A DNA stretch of 64,000 nt from Microlunatus antarcticus (GTDB taxonomy: Bacteria; Actinomycetota; Actinomycetes; Propionibacteriales; Propionibacteriaceae): the NCBI RefSeq assembly GCF_014193425.1, contig NZ_JACHZG010000001.1, positions 3,658,001 to 3,722,000 on the forward strand. Reading direction: 5' to 3'. Position numbers and translations under genes: made by a program. The first letter of the stretch is position 1, and every line of letters starts with the position of its first letter. The notes beneath the pieces are model-generated. The model ran no database searches. It saw nothing but the letters and a program-made list of their open reading frames with translations, and had not been told where the DNA came from. This document shows, piece after piece, positions 40,362 through 55,729 of the stretch.

Positions 40362-43300
40362 TCAGCGACGGACGCGGGGCCACCGCCTCCCCGGACGGGG
40401 ACGGGCCACGCCCGCAGCGCCGGCGCGCCCCGCACGCAGCAGAGCGGCCCCGCCGACCAGCAGGCCGGTGGTGAGCACCAGCAGCCCGAGGCCCACCTCG
40501 GCCCCCGTGGCGGCCAGGCCCGGGCCGTCCGAGCCGTCCGTGCCGTCCGACGGGTCGGGGTCGGAGGTCCCGCCGTCCCCAGCGCCGGTGCCCGGGGCGG
40601 CGGCGACCACCGCCGAGGCCACGCTGGTGTCGTCGGCCGCCGTGGCGTCCGCGGTCGCCGTGGAGACCGAGGCCGTGTTGCTCAGGGTGCCCGTGGCGTC
40701 GACGTCCAGGGTGCCGACCACGGTCACGGTGGTGGTGGTACCGGGGTCCAGCCGGTCCCAGGCGCACCGGACGCGCTGCCCCGTGACGGTGCACGGCTCG
40801 CCGCTGGCGGTGGAGGCCCGGACGCCCGTCACGGCGTCCGGCACGTCGTCGACCAGCTCCACCGCACGGGCGCTCGACGGCCCAGCGGCGTCGACGACCA
40901 GCTCCCAGGTCACCTGCTGCCCGGCCACGGCGACGCCCACGAGCCGCTTGGCGAGCGACACGTCGGTCGCGGCGACCAGCTCCGACGCGACGTCGGCCGC
41001 GTTGTCCGCGACCACGGGGTCGGGCGTCTGCGCGCGGGTGGTCACGACGGTGCTCAGCGTGCCGAGGGCGTCCACGGCGACCCTCCCGGTGACGGTGACC
41101 TCGGCGGTCGCGCCCACCGCGAGGTCCGCCCAGGTACAGCTCACGACGCCGCCGGTGCCGACCCGCGGCAGGAGGTCGCAGTCACCCCCGGGGCCGGGCG
41201 CGGCCACGGCGCCCAGAAGGGACACCGGCAGCACGTCCTCGACGACGACGGCACGCGCGGCCGAGGGCCCGCGGTTCAGGCTCCGCAGGGTCAGGGTGAC
41301 GGGCTGCCCCGGCACCGGGACCGCGGGCGACAGCACGCCGCTCGCGAGCAGGTCGGCGCGGCGCCCGATCTCGGCCACGCTCACGCTCGTGTCGTCGTCG
41401 TGGTCGGGGTCGGCCGTGGCGGTGCTCACCGAGGCCGCGTTGGTCAGCTCGCCCGTCGCCGTGGCGTCCAGCCGGCCGGTCAGCGTCACGGTCCGGGGTG
41501 CGCCCGGGTCGACCCGGTCCCACCGGCAGGACAGGCGCTGCCCCACGACCGTGCAGGCCGTCGGGTCGGCCGTCGTGGCGTCGAGGTCCGACACCGTCGC
41601 CGGGACGTCGTCGACCACGACCACGGACCGCGCGCTCGAGGGCCCGGCGTCGTCGACCACGATCGCCCAGGTCACGCGGCCCCCGGGGTCGGCCGGGCCG
41701 ACGAGGCGCTTGGTCACCGACGCACCCGCCGACGGCACGAGCGTCCCGGAGACCGTGGCCTCGTCGTCGTCCGGGCCCGGGTCGGTCGCGGCCGACCCGG
41801 TGCTGGCGGTGTTCTCCAGGCTCCCGAGCGCTTCCGGGGCCACGCTCGCCGTCACGACGACGGTGGCGGCGGCGCCCACGGCGAGCTGGGGCCAGGTGCA
41901 GCGCAGCTCTCCCGCGCTGCCGGCACGCGGCGTCGTCACGCACCGCCCGTCCCCGGACGGCACCGCCGTGACGTCCTTCAGCACCCCGGGCAGGACGTCG
42001 TCGACGTGCACGCCCGTCGCGGTCGACGGACCGCGGTTACGGCTGGTCAGCGTGAACGCGACCTGCTCCCCCGGCACCGGCGCCGCCGGCGTCATGGTCT
42101 TCGTCAGCCCGAGGTCGGCGACCGCCAGCACGCCTGCCCCGGCCGAGCCCGCGTCGTTCCCGGCCTCCGGGTCGGGCGTCGCCGCGGACACGGACGCGCG
42201 GTTGACCAGCGGGCCGGTCGCACCGGCCGCGAGGGTGCCCGACACCGTCACGGTCAGCGGGCTGCCCGGGTCGACGCGGTCGCGGCGACAGGTGACCTGC
42301 TGCCCGACGACCTCGCAGGGCAGCCCGTCGGCCGCGACCGCCCGGACGGCGGAGACGGGGGCGGGCACGTCGTCGACGAGGACGACCGTCCGGGCGCTGG
42401 ACGGCCCGAGGTCGTCGACCACGACCTCCCAGCTCACGTCCGAGCCCGCCGTGGCCGTACCGACGACACGCTTGCTCACCGCGAGGTCGGCCGACGGCCG
42501 CAGCGCGCCCGACACGGTGGCGCGGTTGTCGGCCGTCTCGGGGTCGGGCGTGGGCGAGCCCGTGCTGGCCGTGCTCGCGAGCGTGCCGAGCGCCTCGGGG
42601 CGGACGCGGGCCGTGACGACGACGCTCACCGACTCCCCGACCCCGACCTCGTCCCACGTGCAGAGGAGCACACCGGCGTTCGGTCCGAGCTCGGCGTCGT
42701 CGGGCTGCGGTGCGATGGTGCAGCGCCCACCCGGGCCCGGGTCCGTCGCGGGCTGCAGCAGCGCGTACGGCAGCAGCTCCTCGATCCGGACCTGCTGGGC
42801 CACGGACGGACCCCGGTTGGTGCTCGTCAGGGTCCGGCGCACCTGGGTCCCCGGGACCGGCTCGGTCGGTTCCTGCCTCGCCACGACGCCCAGGTCGGCC
42901 TCCGGGACGACCGGCGTCGACACGCGGGCACGGTCGTCGGAGCGGTCGGGGTCGTCGGTGGCCGAGGCGACCTCGGCCGTGTTCACCAGGTCGTCACCCA
43001 CGTAGTCGGCCGGCAGGGTGGCGACGACCGTGACCACGTCCTGCACCAGGCCGAGGTCGCCGAGGGCGCAGCTCACGTCGCGACCCTCGACCTCGCAGGC
43101 GGTCCCGTCCGACCGGGTCGCCGACACGACGTCGAGCGGGGCGGGCACGGCGTCGGTCACCCGGACGTCGCGAGCGGTCGACGGACCCGCGCTGCCGACC
43201 AGCAGGTGGTAGGTCGCCCGGTTCCCCGGCACCAGCGCACCTGGCGTGGCGGTCTTGTCCACCCGCAGCGCGGCCTGCTGCACCACCTCGACGTCCACCG

Positions 43301-46300
43301 ACGACCGGTCGTCGGACGCGTCGGGGTCCGGGGTCGACCCGGTCACGGCCGCCTCGGTGCGCACCGTACGGGCGGGAGCGTTTGCCGGGAACAGCACGAC
43401 GACGCGCGCGGTCGCGTCCTCCCCGCGCTCGAGCGGCCCGACGGGGCAGGTCAACGTCCGCCCGTCGAGCACGCAGCCACCGGCGTCCAGGACCTCGGTG
43501 CCCGCGGGCAGCTCGTCGGTCAGGACGACGTCCGCCGCGCGTGAGGGGCCCGCGTTCACCGCGGCGAGGGTGTAGGTCGTGGCCTGGCCCGCGACCACCG
43601 TGCGCGGCTCGGCCGCCGCGGTCACCCCGAGGTCGGCCACCTGACGGACGTCGCTCGTGACGCTGTCCTGGTCGTTGGCCGCGACGCGGTCGTCGGTGGT
43701 GGAGGTCACCTCGGCCGTGCTCGTGACCGGTCCGGTGGCACTCTCGGGGACCAGCACCGACACCTGGACCCGGGCGGTGGTGCCGGCCGGGACGGTACCG
43801 AGGTCGCACGTCACGACCTGGCCCGCGACCGTGCACGCACCCGGCCCCTGCACGCCCTCGACCTCGAGGCCGGCGGGCAGCTCCTGGCGCAGCTGGACGC
43901 CCGCCGCGGTCGAGGGACCGTGGTTCTCCACGTCGACCCGGTACGTCGCGGCGGCGCCGGCCACGAGCGAGGCGGGGTCGACGCCCGCGGTGACGTCGAG
44001 GTCGGCCGTGCCGGAGACCGCGGTCGCGGCGGAGGCGGTGTTGTCCCCCGGCTCGGGGTCGGACGCGCTCGACGACACGAGGGCCTGCAGCGTCAGCGAG
44101 GCCTGGTCGGGAGCGTCCCCGCGAACCGTCGCGGAGATCTCGACGGCCGCGTCCTCGTCGGGGTCGAGGGCGCCGAGGTCGCAGACCAGGCTGGTCTGGG
44201 TCAGGGTGCAGCCGCTCGGCACGGTGACGTCCACCGCCTCGGGCGGGAGGGCGACCCTGACCAGCGAGTCCGAGGCCCTCGAGGGGCCGGCGGCCCGGAC
44301 GGCGAGCGTCCAGGTGGACCGGTCGCCGGCGGTGACGCGGGCGGGACCCGTGACCCCCAGCGTCAGGTCGGAGACGGCGGTGACGGCGCTGCTCGTCGAC
44401 GCCGTGTCGTTGGACGCGGTCGGGTCGGGGGTCGACGCGGTGACGCTCGGGCTGTCGACGAGGACCGTCGCGGTGGCCGCCCGGTCCAGCAGCGCCCGGA
44501 ACCGGACGACGCGCGTGCTGTCCGGCCCGAGCTTGTCGAGGTCGCAGCGCAGCCGTGCACCGTCGACCGTGCAGCGGACGTCCTCGGGGGCGTCCACCTG
44601 CAGGTCGCCCAGACCCTCGGGCAACGTGTCGGTCAGCTCGAGGTCCTCGGCGGTCGACGGGCCGTCGTTGCCGATGGTCAGGTCCCAGGTGCCCCGGGTC
44701 CCGGCGACGAGGGTCGACGGACCGGAGGTGGTGACCGACACGTCCGCGGAACGTTGGGTGCCGAGCTCGGTCCGCGCCTCGAGGTCGTCGCTGTCGGGGT
44801 CGTCGGTGTCGCTCCGCAGCCGGGCGACGTTGACCACCGTGCCGAGCCCGTCGACGTCCGGGACCGCCAAGGTGACGCGGGTCTCGACCGTGGCGCCGGC
44901 GGGCACGGTCCCGAGGTCGCACGTGACGTCCTGGCCGGCCCGTTCGCACGTCGCGCCGCCCGCGGTGCCGAGGAACTTGAACCGGTCCGGGATCACCTCG
45001 GTGAGCACCACCCCCCGGGCGTCGGAGGGCCCGTCGTTGCGGGTGGTCAGGGTGAACGTCAGCTCGTCACCGACGCGGGCCGGCACCGGGTCGGCCGTCG
45101 CCGTGAGCGACAGGTCGGCGAGCGTGGCGACGGGCACCTTGAGGCGGTCGCTGTCGTTACCCCGGTCGGGGTCCTCGGTCTCGCTCTGGACACGGACGAG
45201 GTTGACGAAGCCGCCGTCGGCCCCGGCGGCGACGGTCCCGGAGAGCAGCACCGACACCGAGGCGCCGGGCGCCAGGTCGCCGACGGCGCAGGAGAAGAGC
45301 CCGTCGTCGGCAGCGCAGCCCCCGACCTCGGACGTCGCGGCGGGGTCGAGCAACCGTTCGTCGAGCTCGTCGACGAGGGAGACGTACGTGGCCACGGAGG
45401 GTCCGCGGTTGGTGACGGTCAGGCGGTAGCGCACCGGCTGACCCGCCACGACGGGACCGCTCAGGAGCTCCTGGGACGCCTGGAGGTCGGCCTGCGGCGG
45501 TGCGGGCGCGACCAGGACGTTCGCGCTGTTGTTCGCCGTGTCGGGGTCGAAGGTGGTCGTCTGGACCGAGGCGGTGGACCGCAACGGGTCGACGCCGGTC
45601 CAGGCCGGGTCGAGGCGCGCGCTGACGCTGACCTTGAACGGCTCCCCGGCGTCCGTCGTGCCGAGGGCGCAGGACAGGTCGGCGCCCGAGACGTCGCACG
45701 TCCCCCGGCTGCTGCCGACGTCGCCCACCACGGTGAAGCCGGGCGGGAGGGTGGCGGCGAGCGTGGTGGCCCGCGCCCGCGACGGTCCTGCGTTCGCCAT
45801 CTGGAACAGGAACGTCACGACGTCGCCGGGACGGGCGCTCGTCGGGTCGATCGAGGCGACGAGGGACACGTCGGCCGCGCGGCGCTGCGCCGTGGTGACC
45901 GAGGACGTGTTGTTCGTCGGGTCGGGGTCGGAGGTGCTGCTGGTGACCGTTGCGGTGCCGGGGAGCGAGGTGGCGTCGGAGTCGGGGTCGGTCGTCGCCC
46001 GCCCCACGAACGTGTCCCCGACACCGGCGGGGACGTCGGGCAGGGTGCAGGTGAGCGTCCGGCCGGCCTGCACGCAGGTGGGGCCGGCGGGGTCGGCGCC
46101 ACTGGCGTCGTAGGTGGCGCCCTCGGGCAGCGTGGCGGTCACGACGACCCCCGTCGCCGTGGACGGGCCGGCGTTGGAGACACCGAGACGCCACGTCAGG
46201 TCCTGGCCGCCGCTGACCGCGTCCGGACCCGTCAGGGTCAGCGCGAGGTCGGCCAGGGTGGCGACGGCGGTGCTCACCGTGTTCGTCCGGTAGGTGTACG

Positions 46301-47768
46301 CCTTGGCCAGGGTCTTGGCCGTGTACGCCACGCTCGAGGTGACGTCGAGGTTCGTCCCGGCGGCGGCGGGCTGGACGACCGCCCGGAACCGCACGGTGCT
46401 CGTGCCGTTCGAGGCGAGCGTGCCGCCCTCTCGGGCACTCGCGCCGGTGCCGAGCCGGAAACGCACGGCACTGGCCGAGACCTCGGCCCGGTCGTCCCCG
46501 GCCACGTCGGTCTGCGCACCGGCGCCGGGACCGTCGGTGACGGCGAGGCTGCCCGGGACGTACGTCGTCCCCGCCGGCAGCGGCACGTCGAGCACCGTCC
46601 CGGTCGCCGGGTCCTGGCCGGTGTTGGACAGGGCGACCGTGTACTCCAGCGTGTCGCCGACCTGCGCGGGGTCGTGCGAGGAGAGGTCGACCACGGACGT
46701 CGTCCCGCGCACGTTCGGCGCGTAGAGGTCGACCTGCGTGGTGAGGGCCGCGGGGAAGTAGACGTCGCCGTTCGTGCCGAAGACCAGGTCCGCCGAGCGG
46801 GCGCCGTTGGGCAGGACGTTCGGCGCGTCGACGACCTTCGCGTCGAGGGCCATGTTGTTGACGTTCGCCGGCGTCCGGTCCGTGAGGTTGGCACCGCCGG
46901 TGGTGACCCGGCTGTCGAAGAAGTTCGACGACGGGCTCTGGGCGTCGGCGACCCGGGTGCCGTTCACCGTGAGGTAGTCCCCGGTGAGCTGCTGGTCGCC
47001 CTCGTAGACGACCGAGCCGATGCGGGCGTTGACCGTGCCCGCGGCCGGGGTCAGGAATCCCGAGATGGACGCGCTGATGGTGTCGGTTTTCCCGACCGCG
47101 GCGTAGCCGCCGAAGACGGTGAGGTCGCGCAACGGCAGCGCAGGGTTGCTGTAGGCGACCACGACGGACCACCCGGCGTACTGGTCGGCGCTGTTGACGG
47201 AGCTCGTGATGTCGGCGGCGGTGTAGGGCCCGCCGCCGGCACGCTGCACGAGACCGGTGATGTCGGCGTACGCCGAGTAGTTGCTGGCCTGCACGTCCAG
47301 GCCCCGCGACGCGGTGACGGAGGAGTAGGTCGAGGCACCCGGGGCCTTGAGCTTGATCGTGGAGTTGGCGGCCGCCGTCCCCGCCGCGGTCGAGGCCGTC
47401 GCGCCCCAGAAGAGACCGGCGTAGAGCACGGTCGACCCGTCCGGGACCCGGACCGTCGCCGCCGAGGAGGACTTGGTCGCCGGGTCGCCGTCGGTGTCGA
47501 CGAGCCGCATCGTGAAGTTGTTGTTGCCGGAGTCGACGGTGCCGGCGAGCGCGCCCGGGCAGTCGCGGGACACCTTGTCGCACGTCAGCAGCGCGTTGCC
47601 GGTGATCGCGATCTCGCCGTTCGTCTGCGTGCTGAAGTACGGCGTGAACGCCCGGACCACGGCCGCGTCGGCGGCGGGCGTCGGGACGACCAGCACCGCA
47701 CCGACGAGGGCGAGGGCAGCGGCGACCAGGAGGGCGACGGCACGGCCGGCCCGGAGCCCGTGCGACAC
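40362..47768 (-). CDS. Giant secreted cell-wall-anchored protein with 16 DUF11-type repeats (LAATG sortase signal)
   Basis: 2,468 residues. Signal peptide [19 protein letters not shown], cleavage near ADA-A; a ~340-residue N-terminal beta-rich domain (begins [17 protein letters not shown]) of the sort often found before DUF11 repeats; then 16 DUF11-like domains of ~120-130 residues, each with NxGPS and ending DPDxxNN; then a Gly/Asp/Ser linker, LAATG, a hydrophobic helix and an Arg-rich tail. Fifteen of the repeats carry one close Cys pair. Repeats 11-16 are three copies of a two-domain unit. The GTG at 47768 is the first usable in-frame start after the promoter at 47872-47900, though it lacks a clear ribosome site, so the start is uncertain. 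Likely a surface stalk or adhesin. Confidence 0.88.
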
Positions 47769-47871
47769 GGGACGGCGGGTGTGCGGGCGTGCGGGAGCGA
47801 CGGTGGAGATGAGGAACCTCGGATTCGGGGGGATCCGGGACGAGGCCGCGTCGGGGGTGCGCGACGCCGAA

Positions 47872-47900
47872 AACCTAACAGACACTCAGAAAGCTGTCAG
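47872..47900 (-). promoter_or_regulatory. Sigma-70-type promoter of the DUF11 giant gene
   Basis: On the minus strand CTGACA (47900-47895), 17 bases, TAGGTT (47877-47872), the best -35/-10 pair seen in the window. The expected transcript start near 47865 leaves a ~97-base leader before the GTG at 47768 and rules out the frame's own first start at 47885. Confidence 0.7.
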
Positions 47901-47935: not shown

Positions 47936-48676
47936 TCAGCCGAACAGGGCCCCGACGGCCGAGCCGATGGCGAAGGTCGCGACGAGAGCCACCGCACCCC
48001 CGACCACCAGCCGGAGGATCGGGCGCAGGCGGGGCGTGTCGTTGACCCGGGAGCTGAGCCAGCCGGTCAGGGCGAGCGCGAGCAGCACCGCGGCGAAGGT
48101 GAGCGGCACCCGGAGCGACGCGGGCAGCAGGACGATCGCGAGGAACGGGACCAGCCCGCCCACGAGGAACGAGACGGCCGACGCGAACGCGGCGTGACCG
48201 GCACTGACCACGTCGTCCTCGCTGAGGTTGAGCTCGGCGGCGAGGTGCGCGCCGAGCGCGTCGTGCTCCGTCAGCTCGACCGCGACCTGGCGGGCCGTCG
48301 CGGACGTGAGCCCGCGGGCCTCGTAGAGCCCGGCCAGCTCCTCGAGCTCGGCCTCGGGCTCGGTCGCGAGCTCGAGCCGCTCCTTGGCGATCAGCGTGTT
48401 CTGCGCGTCGCGCTGGCTGCTCACCGAGACGTACTCACCGAGCGCCATCGACAGGGCGCCGCCGACCAGCGCGGCGAGGCCGGCGGTCTCCAGCGCGCGG
48501 GTGCCCCCGCTCGCGCCGGCGACGCCGATGACGACGGCCGCGACCGAGACGATGCCGTCGTTGGCGCCGAGCACACCGGCGCGCAGCCAGTTCAGCTGCT
48601 GGGCGAGCCCGCCGGCGTGCGGCTCGTCCGGGTGGGCGCCCGGCTCGAGGTCGGTCTGCGGCTGGTCGTGCGACAT
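47936..48676 (-). CDS. VIT1/CCC1-family metal (Fe2+/Mn2+) transporter
   Basis: 246-aa membrane protein. LRAGVLGANDGIVSVAAVVIGVAGA is the hallmark first helix, GALSMALGEYVSVSSQRD the second, then a soluble Glu-rich segment (LATEPEAELEELAGLYEARGL ... ELTEHDALGAHLAAEL) that binds metal in plant VIT1, and three more helices. Members move iron or manganese out of the cytosol. The ATG at 48676, two bases after the kinase stop and with GGAG five bases upstream, is preferred to GTG 48682. Last gene of the DUF2231-regulator-kinase-VIT operon, which ties the two-component pair to metal handling. Confidence 0.9.
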   Translation of the reverse strand: MSHDQPQTDLEPGAHPDEPHAGGLAQQLNWLRAGVLGANDGIVSVAAVVIGVAGASGGTRALETAGLAALVGGALSMALGEYVSVSSQRDAQNTLIAKERLELATEPEAELEELAGLYEARGLTSATARQVAVELTEHDALGAHLAAELNLSEDDVVSAGHAAFASAVSFLVGGLVPFLAIVLLPASLRVPLTFAAVLLALALTGWLSSRVNDTPRLRPILRLVVGGAVALVATFAIGSAVGALFG

Positions 48677-48678
48677 GG

Positions 48679-49995
48679 TCACTCCGGGTTGGGGTCGGTC
48701 GAGCGGGAGGTACGGCCGCCGGGTGCGGCGGGAACGGTCAGGCGCAGGAGCGCGCCGACCCGGGGCGTCGGTCGGTTCTCCGCGGTCACCGTCCCGCCGT
48801 GACGGGTGGCGATCTCGCTGACCAGGGCCAGGCCGAGACCGAAGTGTCGTCGACCTCCGGTCTCGGCGGTGGGGCGCCGGTCGCTGGAGAAGCGGTCGAA
48901 CATCCGCGGGAGCGTCTCCGCCGGGATGCCGGGGCCGTCGTCGACGACCTCGACGACGACCGAGCGGCCCGTCCGCGCGAGGCGGACGTCGACCGCACCG
49001 GCGGCGTGGTCGACCGCGTTGTCGACGAGCGCGGCGACGGCGCGCGCCAGCGCGGTCTCGGCCCCGTGCACCGTCATCGGGCCGGCGGTGCCGACCTCGA
49101 CGTGGAGCGTCACGCCGGCCTCCTGCGCCGCGGCCTGGGCCGACGCCACGACGGAGCGCGCCACCGCGGCGAGGTCGACGGGCGTCTGCGGCACCGGCGT
49201 ACGGTCGTCCGCCTCGGTCAGCAGGTCCTCGAGGACCGCCACGAGGGCCGCGGTGTCGGCGACGATGCCGGAGGCGTCACGTTCCACGAGCTGGTCGCGC
49301 TGCTCCGCCGGCGTCGTGGTGTCCCGCACCCGCCGCGCCAGCAGCTGGCTGCGCGTGCTCAGCAGGGTCAGCGGTGTCCGCAGCTCGTGGCCGGCGTCGG
49401 CGACGAACCGGCGCTGCTGCTCGAGCGCCCGGGCCATCGGCCGGACGGCCCGACGGGCCAGGAACGCGGCCGCCAGGGCGGAGAGGACGAGTCCCGCGCC
49501 ACCGGCCAGGCCCAGCGCACCCACGATGCGCTCGCGCTCCTGGTGCTGCTCGAACGTGCTGGCCATGACCTGCACGGTGTCGTCGCCGCGCTGCACGGTC
49601 AGGATCTCGAAGCCGCCGGTGGCCAGGTGCAGGGTGCGCCGGTCCTGGGCGTGCGTCGTGGCGACGGTCCGCATCACGTCGAGGTCGGGCAGCCCGGGCG
49701 GCACGTCGGTGGAGGTCCGGAGCCCGCGGGAGTCGAGCACCGCGTACTGGATGCCGCCGCGGGGCTCGTTGAGGTCGTGGTCGTGGTCGTGGTCTGGGTC
49801 ACGGCCCATCCCCGCGGTGGCGACGGCGTCGCTGAGCGTGCTTGTCAGCTGCGCGTCCTGGCTGCGGACGACCAGCCCGTAGAGGACGGCGCCGACCACG
49901 ACGAGGCAGGCCATCAGCAGCCCGGCCGTCTGGAGCCCGATCCGCCTGGCCGTACGCCGCAGGTCGGCGTCCGACCCGAGCGCGCGGCGGCTCAC
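48679..49995 (-). CDS. Membrane sensor histidine kinase with a His-Asp-rich sensor loop
   Basis: 438 residues. Helix 1 (~22-43), an extracytoplasmic loop (~44-155) containing DPDHDHDHD at 66-74, helix 2 (GALGLAGGAGLVLSALAAAFL), HAMP-like linker, HisKA with phospho-acceptor in FVADAGHELRTPL, and HATPase with DNAVDHA (N box), DDGPGIP (G1) and FGLGLALV (G2). The alternating His/Asp run is unusual for a sensor loop and suggests binding of a divalent metal. GTG 49995 overlaps the regulator stop (GTGA), so the pair is co-translated; the frame's upstream extension to 50190 lies inside the regulator gene. Confidence 0.93.
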   Translation of the reverse strand: MSRRALGSDADLRRTARRIGLQTAGLLMACLVVVGAVLYGLVVRSQDAQLTSTLSDAVATAGMGRDPDHDHDHDLNEPRGGIQYAVLDSRGLRTSTDVPPGLPDLDVMRTVATTHAQDRRTLHLATGGFEILTVQRGDDTVQVMASTFEQHQERERIVGALGLAGGAGLVLSALAAAFLARRAVRPMARALEQQRRFVADAGHELRTPLTLLSTRSQLLARRVRDTTTPAEQRDQLVERDASGIVADTAALVAVLEDLLTEADDRTPVPQTPVDLAAVARSVVASAQAAAQEAGVTLHVEVGTAGPMTVHGAETALARAVAALVDNAVDHAAGAVDVRLARTGRSVVVEVVDDGPGIPAETLPRMFDRFSSDRRPTAETGGRRHFGLGLALVSEIATRHGGTVTAENRPTPRVGALLRLTVPAAPGGRTSRSTDPNPE

Positions 49996-50708
49996 GCGGT
50001 TTCCGTGCCGAGCTGGTAGCCGAGCCCGCGGACCGTGCGGACCGTGTCGCGGCCGAGCTTGCGCCGCAGGTAGTGCACGTACGTGTCGACGACGCCGTCG
50101 TCCTCCGCGTCCGGGAACACCTCGGCCATGAGCTCGTCCCGGCTGAAGACCCGGCTGGGCCGACGCGCCAGGACCGCGAGGAGCGCGCACTCCCGCTCCG
50201 AGACGTAACGGGCCTCGCCGGCGGCGTCCACCACGGTCCGGGCGGAGACCACCAGCCGCCCGCCCGGCACGGTAAGGGTGTCGGCCACGTCGCCGTGGCG
50301 GCGCAGCAGCGCCCGGATCCGCGCGAGCAGCTCGTCGATGTCGAACGGCTTGGACAGGTAGTCCTCCGCCCCCGCGTCCAGCCCGTCGACCCGGTCCCGG
50401 GCCAGACCCAGCGCCGACAGCACCAGCACCGGGACCGCGACCCCGCGGGCGCGCAGCCGACCGAGCAGGTCCAGCCCCTCGATCGCCGGCAGGCCCCGGT
50501 CGAGGACCATCACGTCGTACGAGCGGGTCAGGCCCAGGTGCAGCCCGGCCTGCCCGTCACGGGCGAGGTCGACGACGTAGCCCGCGGAGCCGAGGATCTC
50601 CTCGAGCATGGCGGCCAGCGACCGGTCGTCCTCGACGAGCAGCAGCCGCCGCGCGTCCGGCGCCCCGGCCGGCTCGCGTCCGGTCACCGCCTCGTCGTCC
50701 ACCCGCAC
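49992..50708 (-). CDS. OmpR-family response regulator
   Basis: 238 residues: receiver domain with LLLVEDD, phospho-acceptor Asp70 in VMVLDRGLP, Thr/Ser switch LVLSALG and Lys in LSKPFD, then a winged-helix DNA-binding domain (ERECALLAVLARRPSRVFSRDELM ... VDTYVHYLRRKLG ... VRTVRGLGYQL). Partner of the overlapping kinase gene. GTG 50708 is the longest start; GTG 50702 is also possible. It follows the DUF2231 gene by 13 bases. Likely to bind the repeated elements at 51234-51300. Confidence 0.95.
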   Translation of the reverse strand: MRVDDEAVTGREPAGAPDARRLLLVEDDRSLAAMLEEILGSAGYVVDLARDGQAGLHLGLTRSYDVMVLDRGLPAIEGLDLLGRLRARGVAVPVLVLSALGLARDRVDGLDAGAEDYLSKPFDIDELLARIRALLRRHGDVADTLTVPGGRLVVSARTVVDAAGEARYVSERECALLAVLARRPSRVFSRDELMAEVFPDAEDDGVVDTYVHYLRRKLGRDTVRTVRGLGYQLGTETA

Positions 50709-50721
50709 AGGATGCCCTGGG

Positions 50722-51183
50722 TCACGCGTTCGGCGACCAGGCTGCCGCGGCGCCGCTGTGCCCGATCAGGACCACCTCGACCAGCGCCCCGACGGCGGCG
50801 GCCGTCGCGACCACCGCACCGGCGACGGCCAGCCAGCGCGGGAGGGACCACATCCGGGGCCGCGTCGCCGCGAGCTGCGGCCACAGGACCAGGAGCGCGC
50901 CCACCAGCAGCGCGATCACCCAGGGGAGGAGTCCGTCGGCGAGGTGGGAGTGCTTCTCGATCAGGTCCGAGTGGGGCAGCGTGTGCTCGAGGGACTCCCC
51001 CGACGACGTCGTGATCGGGACGAGGACCACCGCCAGGGCGGCGGCTGCGGCCGGTCCCCACGACGCCCACCGGCGGAACCGGGGCCAGAACGTCGCGAGC
51101 AGCACGGCGAACGCGGCGGTCGGCACCACCACGACGGTGGCGTGCACGATCAGCGGGTGGAGGGGGAGGCCGAAGACGGTCAC
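50722..51183 (-). CDS. DUF2231-type four-helix membrane protein
   Basis: 153 residues with LPLHPLIVHATVVVVPTAAFAV at the N-terminus, the DUF2231 pattern, and four hydrophobic segments. His residues cluster in the first helix (HPLIVHA) and in the loop HTLPHSDLIEKHSHLADG, compatible with haem or metal binding; homologues are often found beside redox membrane proteins. GTG 51183 has AAGGAG upstream. First gene of the leftward operon, sharing the control region 51184-51350 with the flavin electron-transfer operon. Confidence 0.78.
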   Translation of the reverse strand: MTVFGLPLHPLIVHATVVVVPTAAFAVLLATFWPRFRRWASWGPAAAAALAVVLVPITTSSGESLEHTLPHSDLIEKHSHLADGLLPWVIALLVGALLVLWPQLAATRPRMWSLPRWLAVAGAVVATAAAVGALVEVVLIGHSGAAAAWSPNA

Positions 51184-51233
51184 GGTTGGAGCTCCTTCTT
51201 GATGGGCTCCGCACAGGATCGGCACAGTTGATC

Positions 51234-51300
51234 AGAGGTTTCTTAGAGGACCGTCTGACTTCTCCGGAGGTCCCCGCGGACTCACCTGCGGCTAAGAAAC
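51234..51300. promoter_or_regulatory. Candidate response-regulator binding sites between the divergent operons
   Basis: GTTTCTTAG (51238-51246) and its exact inverse CTAAGAAAC (51292-51300) face each other across 45 bases. AGAGG occurs twice in direct orientation with 11-base spacing (51234-51238 and 51245-51249), the tandem half-site spacing used by OmpR-type regulators. The region is much less GC-rich than its surroundings. Confidence 0.5.
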
Positions 51301-51350
51301 GCCTGGTGCAGTTCTCCTCGTCAGGATGTCGACGAGAGGTAGGCAGCACC

Positions 51351-51647
51351 ATGCAGGACGACCGGAGAGGCCCCAGTGGATCGCGCTGGGAACCGGTGGT
51401 ACCGACGACCGTGCGCACGGCACCGCCGGCGACCGCACGGACGGGCGGCCCCGAGCCGCGTCGTCGCTCCCGTCGGCCGTTGGTCGCGGTGCTCCTCGCC
51501 GTGCTCGGCGCCGGGGCCGTGACGACCGGTGCGGCGTACGCGCAGGGTGGCGCCCCCGCAGCGCCGGCCCCGACCGGGTCGACCTCGCAGGTCTCCGGGC
51601 CCGAGGGCGGGCCGCACGGGCACGACCACCACGGACCGCGGCCATGA
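51351..51647 (+). CDS. Small secreted or membrane protein with His-rich tail
   Basis: 98 residues: a basic Arg/Pro-rich N-terminus, one hydrophobic helix (LVAVLLAVLGAGAVTTGAAYA) that is probably a signal anchor, and an outer tail ending GPHGHDHHGPRP. No family recognised. The histidine tail mirrors the His-Asp loop of the nearby kinase and suggests extracytoplasmic metal binding. ATG 51351; its stop overlaps the next ATG (ATGA), so it is coupled to the flavocytochrome gene. Confidence 0.75.
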   Translation: MQDDRRGPSGSRWEPVVPTTVRTAPPATARTGGPEPRRRSRRPLVAVLLAVLGAGAVTTGAAYAQGGAPAAPAPTGSTSQVSGPEGGPHGHDHHGPRP

Positions 51648-53056
51648 CCGCTCTCCTCAGCCGCTCCGCCGCCGACGAGGGGGTTCCCACGCGGGTCCGC
51701 CTCGACGCCGACGCCGCGCTGGACCGGGCGGTCCGCACCACCGGAGGTCTCCTGCTGTGGGCAGGCCTGCTGCTCGTCACCTACTGGTGGGTCGCGGACG
51801 GTGGCGTCACCGACCTCACCACCGGGTGGGCGACCGGGCTGACCTCGGTCGGGCGCCTCACCGGGCTGTGGTCGGCCGACCTGCTGCTGGTCCAGGTGCT
51901 GCTCATGTCCCGGCTGCCGCCCCTCGAGAACGCCTTCGGTCGTGACCGGCTCAACCGCATCCACCGCGTGGTCGGGTTCCTGTCCTTCGACCTGATGTGC
52001 GCGCACGTCCTCACGATCATCGGTGGCTACGCGGGCGCCTCCTGGTCACAGGTCCCGGCCACGACCTGGGAGCTCGTCACCACGTACGCGGGGGTGCTGC
52101 TCTCGGTCGCCGGCACGGTCTGCCTCGTGATGGTCGTCGTGACCAGCGTGAAGAAGGCCCGCCGCCGTCTGCGCTACGAGTCCTGGCACCTGCTGCACCT
52201 CTACGCCTACCTCGGCGTCGGGCTCGCGCTGCCGCACCAGCTGTGGACGGGGCAGGAGTTCCTGCTCTCGACCGGCCGGACCCTCTACTGGTGGGGCCTG
52301 TGGATCGCGGCGGCCGGAGCCGTCCTCGTCTGGCGAGTGCTGCTCCCGCTCGTCAGGAGCCTGCGGCACGGGCTCCGGGTCACCTCGGTCGTGCAGGAGT
52401 CCTCCGACGTGGTGTCGGTCTACCTGACCGGCCGCCACCTGGACCGCCTTCCGCAGCGCGCCGGGCAGTTCCTCAACGTGCGCTTTCTCGACGGGCCCGG
52501 CTGGACCCGCTCCAACCCGTTCTCGCTCTCCGCCGCGCCCGACGGCCGCAGCCTGCGGATCACCGCGAAGGCGCTCGGTGACGGGAGCGGCCGGCTGTCG
52601 CGGCTGCGCCCCGGCACCCGGGTCCTGTTCGAGGGCCCGTACGGGCGGCTCAGCAGCCGGGCCCGGACCCGGCACCGCCTGCTGCTCGTCGGGGCGGGCG
52701 TCGGGATCACCCCGATCCGATCGCTGGCCGAGGGCCTGGACTACGCCCCCGGCGACGCGGTGCTGCTGCAGCGCTGCACGGACGAACCGCTGTTCGTGTC
52801 CGAGCTCGACGTGCTGGCCCGGGAGCGGGGTCTCCAGACGCTCGCCCTGCCCGGGCGTCGCACCAGCGCACGGTCCGTCTTCGGGCCCCTCGCCGGGCCC
52901 GACGAGCTCGCGGCCCTGCGCCAGTGGGTCCCCGACGTCGCCGAGCGCAACGTCTTCCTCTGCGGACCGACCGCCTGGACCGACGGGGTCGAACGACTCC
53001 TCGCCGAGGCAGGCGTCCCCGCCGACCATGTCCACACCGAGAGCTTTGGATGGTGA
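51644..53056 (+). CDS. Ferric-reductase-like flavocytochrome (haem membrane domain plus FAD/NAD(P)H module)
   Basis: 470 residues. The N-terminal half has six hydrophobic helices with paired histidines placed for two b haems: H107 and H121 (HX13H) and H185/H198, with H182 nearby. The C-terminal half is a ferredoxin-NADP reductase module: FAD motif RSNPFSLS, GPYGRLSS, NAD(P) loop GAGVGITPIRSL, and NVFLCGPTAWTDGV. It would pass electrons from cytosolic NAD(P)H through FAD and two haems to the outer face. The neighbouring FMN-binding protein and ApbE supply a covalent flavin acceptor. Close relatives include ferric reductases and NADPH-oxidase-like proteins. Confidence 0.92.
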   Translation: MTALLSRSAADEGVPTRVRLDADAALDRAVRTTGGLLLWAGLLLVTYWWVADGGVTDLTTGWATGLTSVGRLTGLWSADLLLVQVLLMSRLPPLENAFGRDRLNRIHRVVGFLSFDLMCAHVLTIIGGYAGASWSQVPATTWELVTTYAGVLLSVAGTVCLVMVVVTSVKKARRRLRYESWHLLHLYAYLGVGLALPHQLWTGQEFLLSTGRTLYWWGLWIAAAGAVLVWRVLLPLVRSLRHGLRVTSVVQESSDVVSVYLTGRHLDRLPQRAGQFLNVRFLDGPGWTRSNPFSLSAAPDGRSLRITAKALGDGSGRLSRLRPGTRVLFEGPYGRLSSRARTRHRLLLVGAGVGITPIRSLAEGLDYAPGDAVLLQRCTDEPLFVSELDVLARERGLQTLALPGRRTSARSVFGPLAGPDELAALRQWVPDVAERNVFLCGPTAWTDGVERLLAEAGVPADHVHTESFGW

Positions 53057-53060
53057 TCTT

Positions 53061-53570
53061 GTGCGTCGCATCGTGATCTGGCTCGCCTCGACCGTGACGG
53101 TCGTCGTGCTCCTGTTCGGCTACCACACCTCGACCAACTCGGCCGCGACCGCGGCGAGCCCCTCCTCGTCCGGCGCCCCCGCCGCGCCGTCGACCACGAC
53201 GACGCCCCAGGCGTCCGACCCGCCCACCCCCTCGTCGTCGTCTTCGTCTTCGTCCGCGCCGTCCTCATCCTCGCCGTCCTCGTCGTCGTCGGGCACGAAG
53301 AGCTACACCGGGGACGTGACCCAGACACGCTGGGGTCCCGTCCAGGTCAAGATCACCGTGACCGACGGCACGATCACGAAGGTCACGGTGGTGCAGTCCC
53401 CGAGCGGCAACGGTCGCGACCTCGAGATCAACAGCCGGGCCCTGCCGGTGCTGACCCAGGAGACGATCGACGCGCAGAGCGCGAAGATCGACATGGTCAG
53501 CGGCGCCACCGTCACCAGCGACGGCTACGTGGGGTCACTGCAGTCCGCCCTCGACCAGGCCGGGATCTGA
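53061..53570 (+). CDS. Membrane-anchored FMN-binding domain protein (ApbE substrate)
   Basis: 169 residues: N-terminal membrane helix (RIVIWLASTVTVVVLLFG), a ~55-residue Ser/Thr/Pro linker with long Ser runs, then an FMN-binding domain (PF04205 type) with DMVSGATVTS. D144-MVSGAT150 matches the ApbE flavinylation motif DxxSGAT, so FMN should be joined by phosphoester to Thr150 outside the membrane. GTG 53061 lies four bases after the flavocytochrome stop, and apbE follows two bases after its own stop. Likely terminal or relay acceptor for electrons from the flavocytochrome. Confidence 0.9.
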   Translation: MRRIVIWLASTVTVVVLLFGYHTSTNSAATAASPSSSGAPAAPSTTTTPQASDPPTPSSSSSSSSAPSSSSPSSSSSGTKSYTGDVTQTRWGPVQVKITVTDGTITKVTVVQSPSGNGRDLEINSRALPVLTQETIDAQSAKIDMVSGATVTSDGYVGSLQSALDQAGI

Positions 53571-53572
53571 AG

Positions 53573-54358
53573 GTGACCACCGCTCCCTCGGTCGCCGCGC
53601 CCGACGTCCACCGCTACGTCGAGCACGTGATGGGGATGCCGATCAGCCTCGCGCTGCGCGGACGCCACGCGGCCACACCGGCGGGGCGGTCGGCCTGGAC
53701 CGCCGTCATGGCCGAGCTCGCCGAGGTGGACCGGGTCTTCAGCACCTACCGGTCGGACTCGTTGATCAGCCGCCTCGCCCGGGGAGAGCTCGACCTCGGT
53801 CAGTGCCCGCCCGAGGTCGCCGAGGTCCTCGAGCTCGGCGCCCGGGCGGCCGCGGAGTCGGGCGGCGCCTTCTCCGTCCGGCTCCCGGCAGCAGGAGGCT
53901 CACGCCGGCTCGACCCGAGCGGGGTGGTCAAGGGCTGGGCGGCGGAACGGGCCGCCCGGCACCTCGCGCGCCTCGCCGAGACCGACTTCTGTCTCTCCGC
54001 CGGGGGTGACATCACCTGCCGCGCCTCGTCGGCGTCCGAGCCGTGGCGGATCGGGATCGAGGACCCGCACGACCCGGGCCGCGTCCTCGCGGTGGTCCCG
54101 CTGCGGACCGGGGCGGTGGCCACCTCCGGCACCGCACACCGCGGCGCCCACCTCGTGGACGCCCGGACGGGGCTGCCGCCGCGAGACGTCGCGTCGGTCA
54201 CGGTGATCGGACCGTCGTTGACCTGGGCCGACATCGACGCGACGGCCGCGTACGCGCAGGGCGACGGCGCGGCCGCGTGGCTGCGCACCCGACCGATCGA
54301 CAGCGCCCTCGTCGTCGCTCCCGACGGGGCGGTCACGACGGTCGTCCCGACGCGGTGA
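53573..54358 (+). CDS. apbE: FAD:protein FMN transferase (ApbE family)
   Basis: 261 residues. Shows MGMPISLAL near the N-terminus, FSTYRSDSLISRLARGE, the conserved LDPSGVVKGWAAERAA (usual DxGGxxKG), LSAGGDITCRA and TSGTAHRGAHLVDARTGLPP with the final ADIDATAAYA, all in the ApbE order. No lipobox or signal peptide, so this actinobacterial form may act from the cytosol or be exported unconventionally. It is slightly shorter than typical ApbE (~300 aa). GTG 53573 starts two bases after the FMN-binding gene stops; the obvious substrate is the upstream SGAT protein. Confidence 0.92.
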   Translation: MTTAPSVAAPDVHRYVEHVMGMPISLALRGRHAATPAGRSAWTAVMAELAEVDRVFSTYRSDSLISRLARGELDLGQCPPEVAEVLELGARAAAESGGAFSVRLPAAGGSRRLDPSGVVKGWAAERAARHLARLAETDFCLSAGGDITCRASSASEPWRIGIEDPHDPGRVLAVVPLRTGAVATSGTAHRGAHLVDARTGLPPRDVASVTVIGPSLTWADIDATAAYAQGDGAAAWLRTRPIDSALVVAPDGAVTTVVPTR

Positions 54359-54744: not shown

Positions 54745-55665
54745 TCACCGCGTCGGCGCGCGATCGGCGACGCCGGTGAACAGGTCGTCCTCGGGCAGGT
54801 GGGTCTCCACCGTCGTCCGGGCGAGCTCGAAGTCCTCGGTCGGCCACACCTCGAGCTGCAGGTCCATCGGGATCTGGAACCAGGAGCCCTCCGGGTCGAT
54901 CTGCGTCGCGTGCGCGAGCAGGGCGCGGTCGCGGACCTCGAAGTAGTCCCCGCACGGCACCCGCGTGGTGACCCGGTCCTGCATCGCCGGGTCCGGCGGC
55001 CACCGGCGCAGGCGCTCCGCGTACGGGGACTCCAGCCCGCGCGCGGTCATGGCGGCGTCGAGCGCCTCCGTCTTGGCGAGGTGGAAGGCGAAGGAGTAGT
55101 AGAGCTTCGGCGTCTGCCAGACCGGGCCGAGCTCGGGGTGCCAGTCCGGGTCGGCGGCGTGGTCGTAGGCGGCCACGCTGATCCGGTGGCACATGACGTG
55201 GTCGGGGTGCGGGTAGCCGCCGCGCTCGTCGTACGTCGTCATGACGTGCGGGCGGAGACGGCGGATGACCTGCACCAGCGGGATCGACGCCTCGTCGACG
55301 TCGAGGGTGGCGAAGCTGCCCGGCGGCAGCGGCGGCAGCGGGTCGCCCTCGGGGAGCCCGGAGTCGACGAAGCCGAGCCAGACCTGCTCGATGCCGAGGA
55401 TGTGGCGGGCCGCGTCCATCTCCTGGCGCCGGATCTCGGCGATGTTCGCGAGCACGTCGGGGCGGTCCATGTTCGGGTTGAGGATCGAGCCGCGCTCCCC
55501 GCCGGTGCAGGTCGCGACCATCACCTCCACGCCCTCCGCCACGTAGCGCGCCGTCGTGGCCGCGCCCTTGCTGGACTCGTCGTCGGGGTGGGCGTGCACG
55601 TGGAGCAGCCGCAGCCGCTCACCACGGGCGTCGACACGCAGGGGGGCCTCGTTCACATCCGGCAT
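54745..55665 (-). CDS. mca: Mycothiol S-conjugate amidase
   Basis: 306-aa zinc amidase that cleaves mycothiol adducts to a mercapturic acid and GlcN-Ins, the actinobacterial detoxification route. LLHVHAHPDDESSKGAATTARYV carries the zinc His/Asp-Asp motif, GGERGSILNP and TYDERGGYPHPDHVMCH supply the other ligands and active-site residues; length is typical of Mca rather than of the shorter MshB. ATG 55665 is used; GTG 55656, seven bases after GACGAT, is an alternative leaderless start. Shows that this organism makes mycothiol. Confidence 0.94.
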   Translation of the reverse strand: MPDVNEAPLRVDARGERLRLLHVHAHPDDESSKGAATTARYVAEGVEVMVATCTGGERGSILNPNMDRPDVLANIAEIRRQEMDAARHILGIEQVWLGFVDSGLPEGDPLPPLPPGSFATLDVDEASIPLVQVIRRLRPHVMTTYDERGGYPHPDHVMCHRISVAAYDHAADPDWHPELGPVWQTPKLYYSFAFHLAKTEALDAAMTARGLESPYAERLRRWPPDPAMQDRVTTRVPCGDYFEVRDRALLAHATQIDPEGSWFQIPMDLQLEVWPTEDFELARTTVETHLPEDDLFTGVADRAPTR

Positions 55666-55729
55666 CGTCCCACGCACGCCGAAGCCGTCTCGGCCCGCGA
55701 GCCCTTCGGGGACCGAGGATGATGGGGGC

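Follow-up and report, generated by a model that had tools for sequence, protein, structure and literature searches.

Two divergent operons of Microlunatus antarcticus as a probable flavinylated electron relay under two-component control, with DUF2231 and VIT proteins in one candidate regulon

Do two divergent operons of Microlunatus antarcticus, one encoding a flavocytochrome, a flavin mononucleotide (FMN)-binding protein and the flavin transferase ApbE, and the other a DUF2231 membrane protein, a two-component system and a VIT-type metal transporter, form a single system, and under what control? The question was addressed in a stretch of 64,000 nucleotides (the window; assembly GCF_014193425.1, contig NZ_JACHZG010000001.1, positions 3,658,001 to 3,722,000) and in its relatives. 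The locus probably encodes an MsrQ-like, flavinylated electron relay across the membrane, controlled by the two-component system, with the DUF2231 protein and the VIT transporter in the same regulon. An earlier interpretation made from the letters of this DNA (the sequence-only reading) had placed eight genes in two operons around a common control region; an open reading frame check and family searches found all eight open, and their places, their families and the intergenic gap were borne out (Table 1). In both operons the genes overlap or lie within a few bases of each other, the kinase GTG start overlapping the stop of the regulator gene, with the exception of the 13-base gap between the DUF2231 and regulator genes.

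The core of the proposed relay was examined through its conserved residues. In the flavocytochrome, four candidate haem ligands were found in nearly all of 64 homologues (His107 in 63/64, and His121, His185 and His198 in 64/64; columns 97, 111, 175 and 188 in alignment numbering). A flavin adenine dinucleotide (FAD)/NAD(P)H module of the FNR type, at about residues 244-469, was recognized by NADH oxidoreductase-type models of NCBIfam and by its similarity to flavohaemoglobin-type reductases of the PDB; a Pfam search of the protein yielded no NAD-binding domain, PF00175 not being among the matches at 0.01. The exact DxxSGAT motif named in the sequence-only reading is present as DMVSGAT in the FMN_bind protein, each letter of SGAT being kept in 62-63 of 63 homologues, and the ApbE gene stands beside it. 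From the literature on these families it follows that the His pairs would hold two haems and that the threonine of SGAT (Thr150) would carry covalent FMN; the families and conserved residues thus support the predicted chain NAD(P)H-FAD-haem-haem-FMN. The small protein that opens this operon matched no Pfam family above its cut-off. It has one transmembrane (TM) segment, assigned by eye, and a tail with HGHDHHG; proteins with SGSRWEP and a TM segment (by eye) were found in five loci of the same genus, the window included, and the His-bearing tail was clear in four of them, L033 being the one without it.

Table 1. Features of the divergent locus, in window coordinates.
Feature	Position	Strand	Details
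VIT/CCC1-family metal transporter	47936..48682	-	248 aa; PF01988 6.1e-60
Sensor histidine kinase	48679..49995	-	438 aa; HisKA + HATPase_c; two TM, short extracytosolic sensor
OmpR/PhoB-type response regulator	49992..50708	-	238 aa; Response_reg + Trans_reg_C
DUF2231 four-TM membrane protein	50722..51183	-	153 aa; PF09990 34.4 bits, cut-off 26.4
Divergent control region	51184..51350		167 bp
CACAG-N6-CACAG direct repeat, 11-bp period, PhoP-like candidate operator	51212..51227	+	exact match in gap
CTAAGAA candidate operator facing DUF2231 operon	51240..51246	-	56 bases before start codon
CTAAGAA candidate operator facing cassette operon	51292..51298	+	52 bases before ATG of small gene
Small single-TM protein	51351..51647	+	98 aa; N-terminal SGSRWEP, His/Asp/Gly-rich tail
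MsrQ/NOX-like flavocytochrome with FAD/NAD(P)H module	51644..53056	+	470 aa; PF01794 over 73-194
Membrane-tethered FMN_bind protein, Ser/Pro-rich linker	53061..53570	+	169 aa; PF04205 3.8e-13; tether by eye
DMVSGAT flavinylation motif	53490..53510	+	in FMN_bind protein
ApbE flavin transferase	53573..54358	+	261 aa; PF02424 8.8e-39

To place the locus among its relatives, the flavocytochrome was searched in 146 related genomes, 87 of which matched at 1e-10, many of them to the reductase half only, and loci were taken around most, not all, full-length matches; a phylum sample of 396 genomes was added, of which 17 matched at 1e-45, our own included. The resulting cassette set (flavocytochrome, mostly with FMN_bind and ApbE nearby) comprised 97 loci with a flavocytochrome above 370 bits in our own profile, several loci sharing a genome. 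Within 9 kb of these flavocytochromes, FMN_bind was found at 81 loci, ApbE at 78, DUF2231 at 13 and VIT at eight, and a regulator of the same clade as that of the window at 20.

The regulator clade comprises 27 of the 146 relatives' genomes (own included) at 60 percent identity or more, after which identity drops to 50 percent or less; for the counts, membership was set at a profile score above 280 bits (co-location) or above 250 bits (tree), thresholds that also admit some regulators at 46-47 percent identity (L064, L065). In the regulator tree, 47 clade rows were split from six outgroup rows with a support of 99/98, the inner forks being often weak and the outgroup branches long, and the cassette label was scattered over the tree. 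Both genes of the opposite operon were concentrated at cassettes accompanied by the clade: DUF2231 was present at 10/20 of these loci vs 3/77 others, and VIT at 6/20 vs 2/77. At least 79 DUF2231 matches, a lower bound since the Pfam model missed at least the L059 copy, and 66 VIT matches were counted in 57 relatives; therefore, chance co-location within 18 kb is expected in about half a percent of cases for each. Among 34 clade rows that had not been found via DUF2231, 20 were near a cassette and 19 near a DUF2231 gene, and nine of the 14 clade regulators without a cassette had DUF2231. The regulator, kinase and DUF2231 genes thus look like a tighter unit, with DUF2231 most closely tied to the regulator.

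Co-conservation of the two operons in relatives, whose absence would have refuted the sequence-only reading, was found. The full order of eight genes was recovered again only in Microlunatus flavus (strain CGMCC 4.6856; L031, identical to L170). The seven main genes (all but the small one) were together in five of the 97 cassette loci, in four orders (the window and L031; L034; L074; L099). Cellulomonas sp. URHE0023 (L219) has six of these seven, ApbE not being detected. Outside the taxonomic order, the clade and the flavocytochrome were found together in Cellulomonas (L219) and Rugosimonospora (L228), at loci found via DUF2231. Kribbella-like genomes (L052-L062) show the arrangement ApbE-regulator-kinase-flavocytochrome-FMN_bind, often with a second FMN_bind gene and, in some, DUF2231. 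As the gene set was kept while its order was shuffled, the pattern is of the kind left by selection for joint function.

The control region of the window contains one CYAAGAA heptamer for each operon, both facing outward, as single half-sites with a degenerate second half; in several relatives a second copy follows with an 11-bp period. The motif has a background of 0.074 per kb. Upstream of cassettes its density was 2.1 per kb where the regulator clade was present (14/20 loci, 12 same-strand) and 0.19 per kb where it was not (4/77 loci), and upstream of DUF2231 genes with the clade it reached 4.1 per kb (14/19); the upstream lengths counted were 650 bp for the five loci with the small gene, 330 bp for other cassettes and 230 bp for DUF2231. 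The exact 8-mers TTTCTTAG and CTAAGAAA were set aside as a general operator, few loci having them, and the degenerate CYAAGAA was more useful. Joint control of both operons, as earlier proposed, is supported by these paired candidate operators and their comparative counts.

Several points weigh against such a regulon. The clade was rare in the even phylum sample (5/396 besides our own genome), none of these five has a full flavocytochrome beside a clade regulator, and regulators outside the clade were near 22/97 cassettes. DUF2231 was not nearby for 5/14 clade regulators without a cassette and 10/20 with one. Rows from the same genome or genus are not independent: one Kribbella-like genus contributed 8/14 of the motif-bearing cassette loci and 11/11 of the target double sites described below, and the gaps of the window and L031 were counted in both the cassette and the DUF2231 operator sets. 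The inverted repeat of 9 bp seen in the gap is not exceptional, as 94/2000 gap shuffles contain one, and therefore only the comparative counts carry weight. Finally, CYAAGAA was first noticed in these same promoters and counted afterwards. As the motif had been found by reading promoters, a second set of loci was tested, made up of the DUF2231 loci of named genomes minus four genomes already seen: CYAAGAA within 150 bp on the same strand was present in 6/13 loci with the clade vs 1/63 without it (P=5e-5), three of the six clade-positive loci belonging to close Rhodococcus relatives. A looser first count over all 80 DUF2231 loci (250 bp, either strand) had given 8/15 vs 6/65. When the 146 relatives were scanned for the double site CYAAGRA-N4-CYAAGAA, 11 of the 18 matches stood directly before flavocytochrome or DUF2231 genes, although the scan was overall barely above its reversed control (18 vs 13); two of the DUF2231 genes among these 11 are distant from the regulator gene, by about 20 kb and 578 kb.

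A second element of the control region, the CACAG-N6-CACAG direct repeat, was found as an exact copy upstream of 29 of the 97 cassettes, and in a first survey 26 exact sites lay upstream of cassettes vs three in the remaining 1.19 Mb. In 18 of the 29 the repeat is followed at 21-23 bases by a start codon, a spacing that the window copy does not have; this would point to leaderless transcripts with the CACAG site over the -35 region. The Mycobacterium tuberculosis PhoP site consists of direct repeats of the 7-bp TCACAGC with a 4-bp spacer, that is, an 11-bp period (PMC4832192). The CACAG repeat has the same period, but the window regulator differs from PhoP and its clade is tied to CYAAGAA. The repeat was not claimed as the own site of the window regulator, as it also stands before cassettes without the clade and has 11 exact copies in our own genome (reversed control, 2); its occurrence without this clade makes recognition by another OmpR-type regulator probable. 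Copies in the own genome precede genes for a trypsin/PDZ (HtrA-type) protease, an alkaline phosphatase and a DUF3500 protein (L101, L102, L109), the protease copy lying 22 bases before the ATG. At L071-L073, L075 and L151, a different regulator-kinase pair is oriented divergently from the cassette, the intervening DNA carrying CACAG repeats (one mismatch in L151), and the cassette therefore seems to have acquired regulators more than once.

The control genes form an OmpR/PhoB two-component pair, a receiver and winged-helix regulator next to a HisKA/HATPase_c kinase as identified by Pfam. CutR was discarded as the identity of the regulator, its TAWATAAA site being different. The sequence-only reading had the kinase sense extracellular metal or redox state; metal sensing was not supported. 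The HDHDHDHD run of the kinase exists but is not conserved among 29 aligned kinases, in whose sensors no His or Cys was invariant (per column, Cys in at most 1/29 and His in at most 16/29); the commonest sensor His (16/29) adjoins the second TM segment, and the sensor loop is mostly acidic within the genus and short elsewhere. Against the heavy-metal sensor kinase model TIGR01386 the kinase scored 110.2 bits, below the cut-off of 292.55. With no invariant His or Cys and an unshared His run, a metal-sensing kinase was dropped as unsupported.

The DUF2231 protein has three His residues (His9, His14 and His78) that were invariant in 50/50 aligned relatives; two of the three were part of the search pattern, and His78 was not. 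A positive-inside count of charged loops puts all three at the outer face of the membrane. An AlphaFold2 model gave a confident helical bundle (predicted local distance difference test, pLDDT, 93.6). No match at E 1 was obtained against PDB sequences, a Foldseek search with the model returned nothing under E 0.001, the top TM-scores being those of generic four-helix bundles, and the literature records found on DUF2231 came to a single cysteine database paper. A neighbour survey covered the best 80 of 445 relatives, with a gene call in 67 of the 80 loci. The neighbours up to four genes away in these 67 loci included regulators of any kind (27 loci), kinases (22), ApbE (15), FMN_bind (nine), VIT (eight) and the flavocytochrome (seven). 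A short ferric-reductase cytochrome (five loci) and nitrate reductase gamma (NarI; six loci) recurred as well, one member of each having been checked by Pfam. The NarI loci belong to Cryobacterium (L173, L181, L183, L191, L229) and Aeromicrobium (L185). In L084 (3449-4240, minus strand) DUF2231 is fused to a cytochrome b5 domain, at a locus that also has VIT, ApbE and a flavocytochrome. The neighbours, the invariant His78 and this fusion support, without proving, a redox or metal role. More specifically, DUF2231 may be a redox or metal-binding four-helix membrane protein with its three His at the outer membrane face; electrons or metal would be exchanged between it, VIT and the flavinylated relay, and it would be the principal output of a two-component system of Actinobacteria. 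Taken as a whole, this proposal is on the doubtful side. A separate DUF2231 subgroup (L206, L210, L212, L225, L238, L239) has as neighbours a secreted-repeat protein (PF03640) and a small protein, anti-sigma-like by our reading, L238's copy of which had no Pfam match; five of the six loci (not L212) have a sigma-70-type gene, which was checked in L239.

The VIT protein scored 203 bits against PF01988 (cut-off 28.1), the family that it shares with VIT1/CCC1 transporters. In the PDB its only match at E 0.1 was a distant one, VIT1 of entry 6iu3 (1.4e-19), which we take to be EgVIT1. Eukaryotic VIT1 and VIT-family proteins carry Fe2+ away from the cytosol. The iron exporter MbfA is likewise distant, its NCBIfam equivalog model matching only the C-terminal part at 37.1 bits, far below the cut-off of 450. 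Because VIT1 moves iron from the cytosol and MbfA exports iron, the transporter of the locus is more likely, by analogy, to export metal than to import it. Two points of the earlier view are uncertain: that VIT handles imported metal, and that the acceptor is a metal. Outside the window, the own genome has one more VIT match (contig 1655361-1655979), made up of two overlapping fragments in different frames, perhaps broken or misassembled.

The gene families, the conserved haem and flavin residues, the conserved operators and the co-localisation are read directly from the DNA, and the scheme that we build on them predicts the direction of the electrons, the binding of the regulator to the operators and the roles of DUF2231 and VIT. 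In the flavocytochrome, NAD(P)H would reduce the FAD of the cytosolic module, and two b haems would take the electrons across the membrane. They would then pass to the FMN that ApbE attaches covalently to the tethered FMN_bind protein, and from there to an acceptor outside the cytosol. Both divergent operons would be controlled by the kinase/regulator pair via the outward-facing CYAAGAA operators. DUF2231 may serve as a partner protein in the membrane, with a putative His site on its outer side, and VIT may move Fe2+ or Mn2+ out of the cytosol. Two candidates lead for the acceptor and the signal, iron redox balance and envelope redox stress; the former is our best guess, a tentative one.

Comparison with known systems indicates which part of the locus is new. 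Clusters of the MsrQ-like type, 1797 in 1468 genomes and broadly conserved in Actinobacteria, were described by Meheust et al. 2021 (PMC8238504), 1437 of them with an NAD-binding domain and 153 with VIT1. Like our locus, they combine a PF01794 flavocytochrome, often with an NAD-binding domain, with FMN_bind, ApbE and sometimes VIT1, mainly in Actinobacteria; unlike it, they are presented in a main text from which 'two-component system' and DUF2231 are absent. The earlier statement that no described system combines all eight genes overstates the novelty, as a 2021 paper had already described the cassette, in some clusters together with VIT1; the two-component and DUF2231 parts were not found in that main text. 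In the titles and abstract openings surveyed, no account of the regulation of MsrQ-like flavinylation clusters was found. The cassette with or without VIT is already known; the regulatory wiring, that is, the two-component system, the operators and DUF2231, is the new part.

Other functions of the relay were considered. The locus could be an NADPH-oxidase-like system, or one for oxygen, quinone or thiol stress, which passes electrons to O2 or to oxidised envelope components while VIT protects against the ensuing metal stress. Among PDB sequences the flavocytochrome best matches the NOX of Streptococcus pneumoniae (8qt6 group, 6e-9, over residues 74-360) and, along a short stretch, NOX2; SpNOX shares with it a transmembrane ferric-reductase-type core and a FAD/NADPH module, dioxygen served as acceptor for a Streptomyces protein with three FMN (PMC12052999), and CACAG sites of the own genome stand before the HtrA-type protease and alkaline phosphatase genes. 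However, in our operon, unlike SpNOX, the flavocytochrome is accompanied by ApbE and by an outer protein that bears a flavinylation motif, which would make direct reduction of O2 by haem unlikely as the main role. We regard such a system as possible, if doubtful.

Unlikely, to a slightly greater degree, is an assimilatory ferric reductase, in which the FMN protein reduces outside Fe(III), the iron is taken up and VIT is the importer. This follows Meheust et al. (PMC8238504), who suggested iron reduction and uptake for some MsrQ-like clusters, reading in this way the 153 with VIT1. In Bifidobacterium breve, iron limitation induces the iron-uptake cluster sifABCDE, which includes the FMN-binding SifE, and a mutant in apbE shows impairment in the presence of ferrous iron chelators. 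The transport of Fe2+ from the cytosol by eukaryotic VIT1 and the weak resemblance of the locus VIT to MbfA speak against import. Chance neighbourhood or shared horizontal transfer, with a regulator that serves DUF2231 only, would fit the regulator-kinase-DUF2231 sets without a cassette in several genomes (L091, L093-L098, L100) and the many cassettes with other regulators or none nearby, but is quite improbable given co-location repeated in rearranged orders, a cassette label scattered in the regulator tree and an operator before the cassette in 14/20 clade loci vs 4/77 others.

Two further genes flank the operons. A surface-type protein of 2507 aa (40362-47885, minus strand), in which 11 stretches matched DUF11-type repeats, adjoins VIT, and a gene for mycothiol conjugate amidase Mca (54745-55677, minus strand; 461 bits, above its cut-off) lies downstream of ApbE on the opposite strand.

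A two-component-controlled relay of this kind would bear on a common class of loci, as MsrQ-like clusters are frequent in Actinobacteria and yet functions have only been suggested for some of them (Meheust et al.). A readable operator would make the regulon predictable from sequence and the inducing condition screenable by reporter, and DUF2231, an uncharacterised membrane family, would gain a link to metal transport and to electron transfer outside the cytosol.

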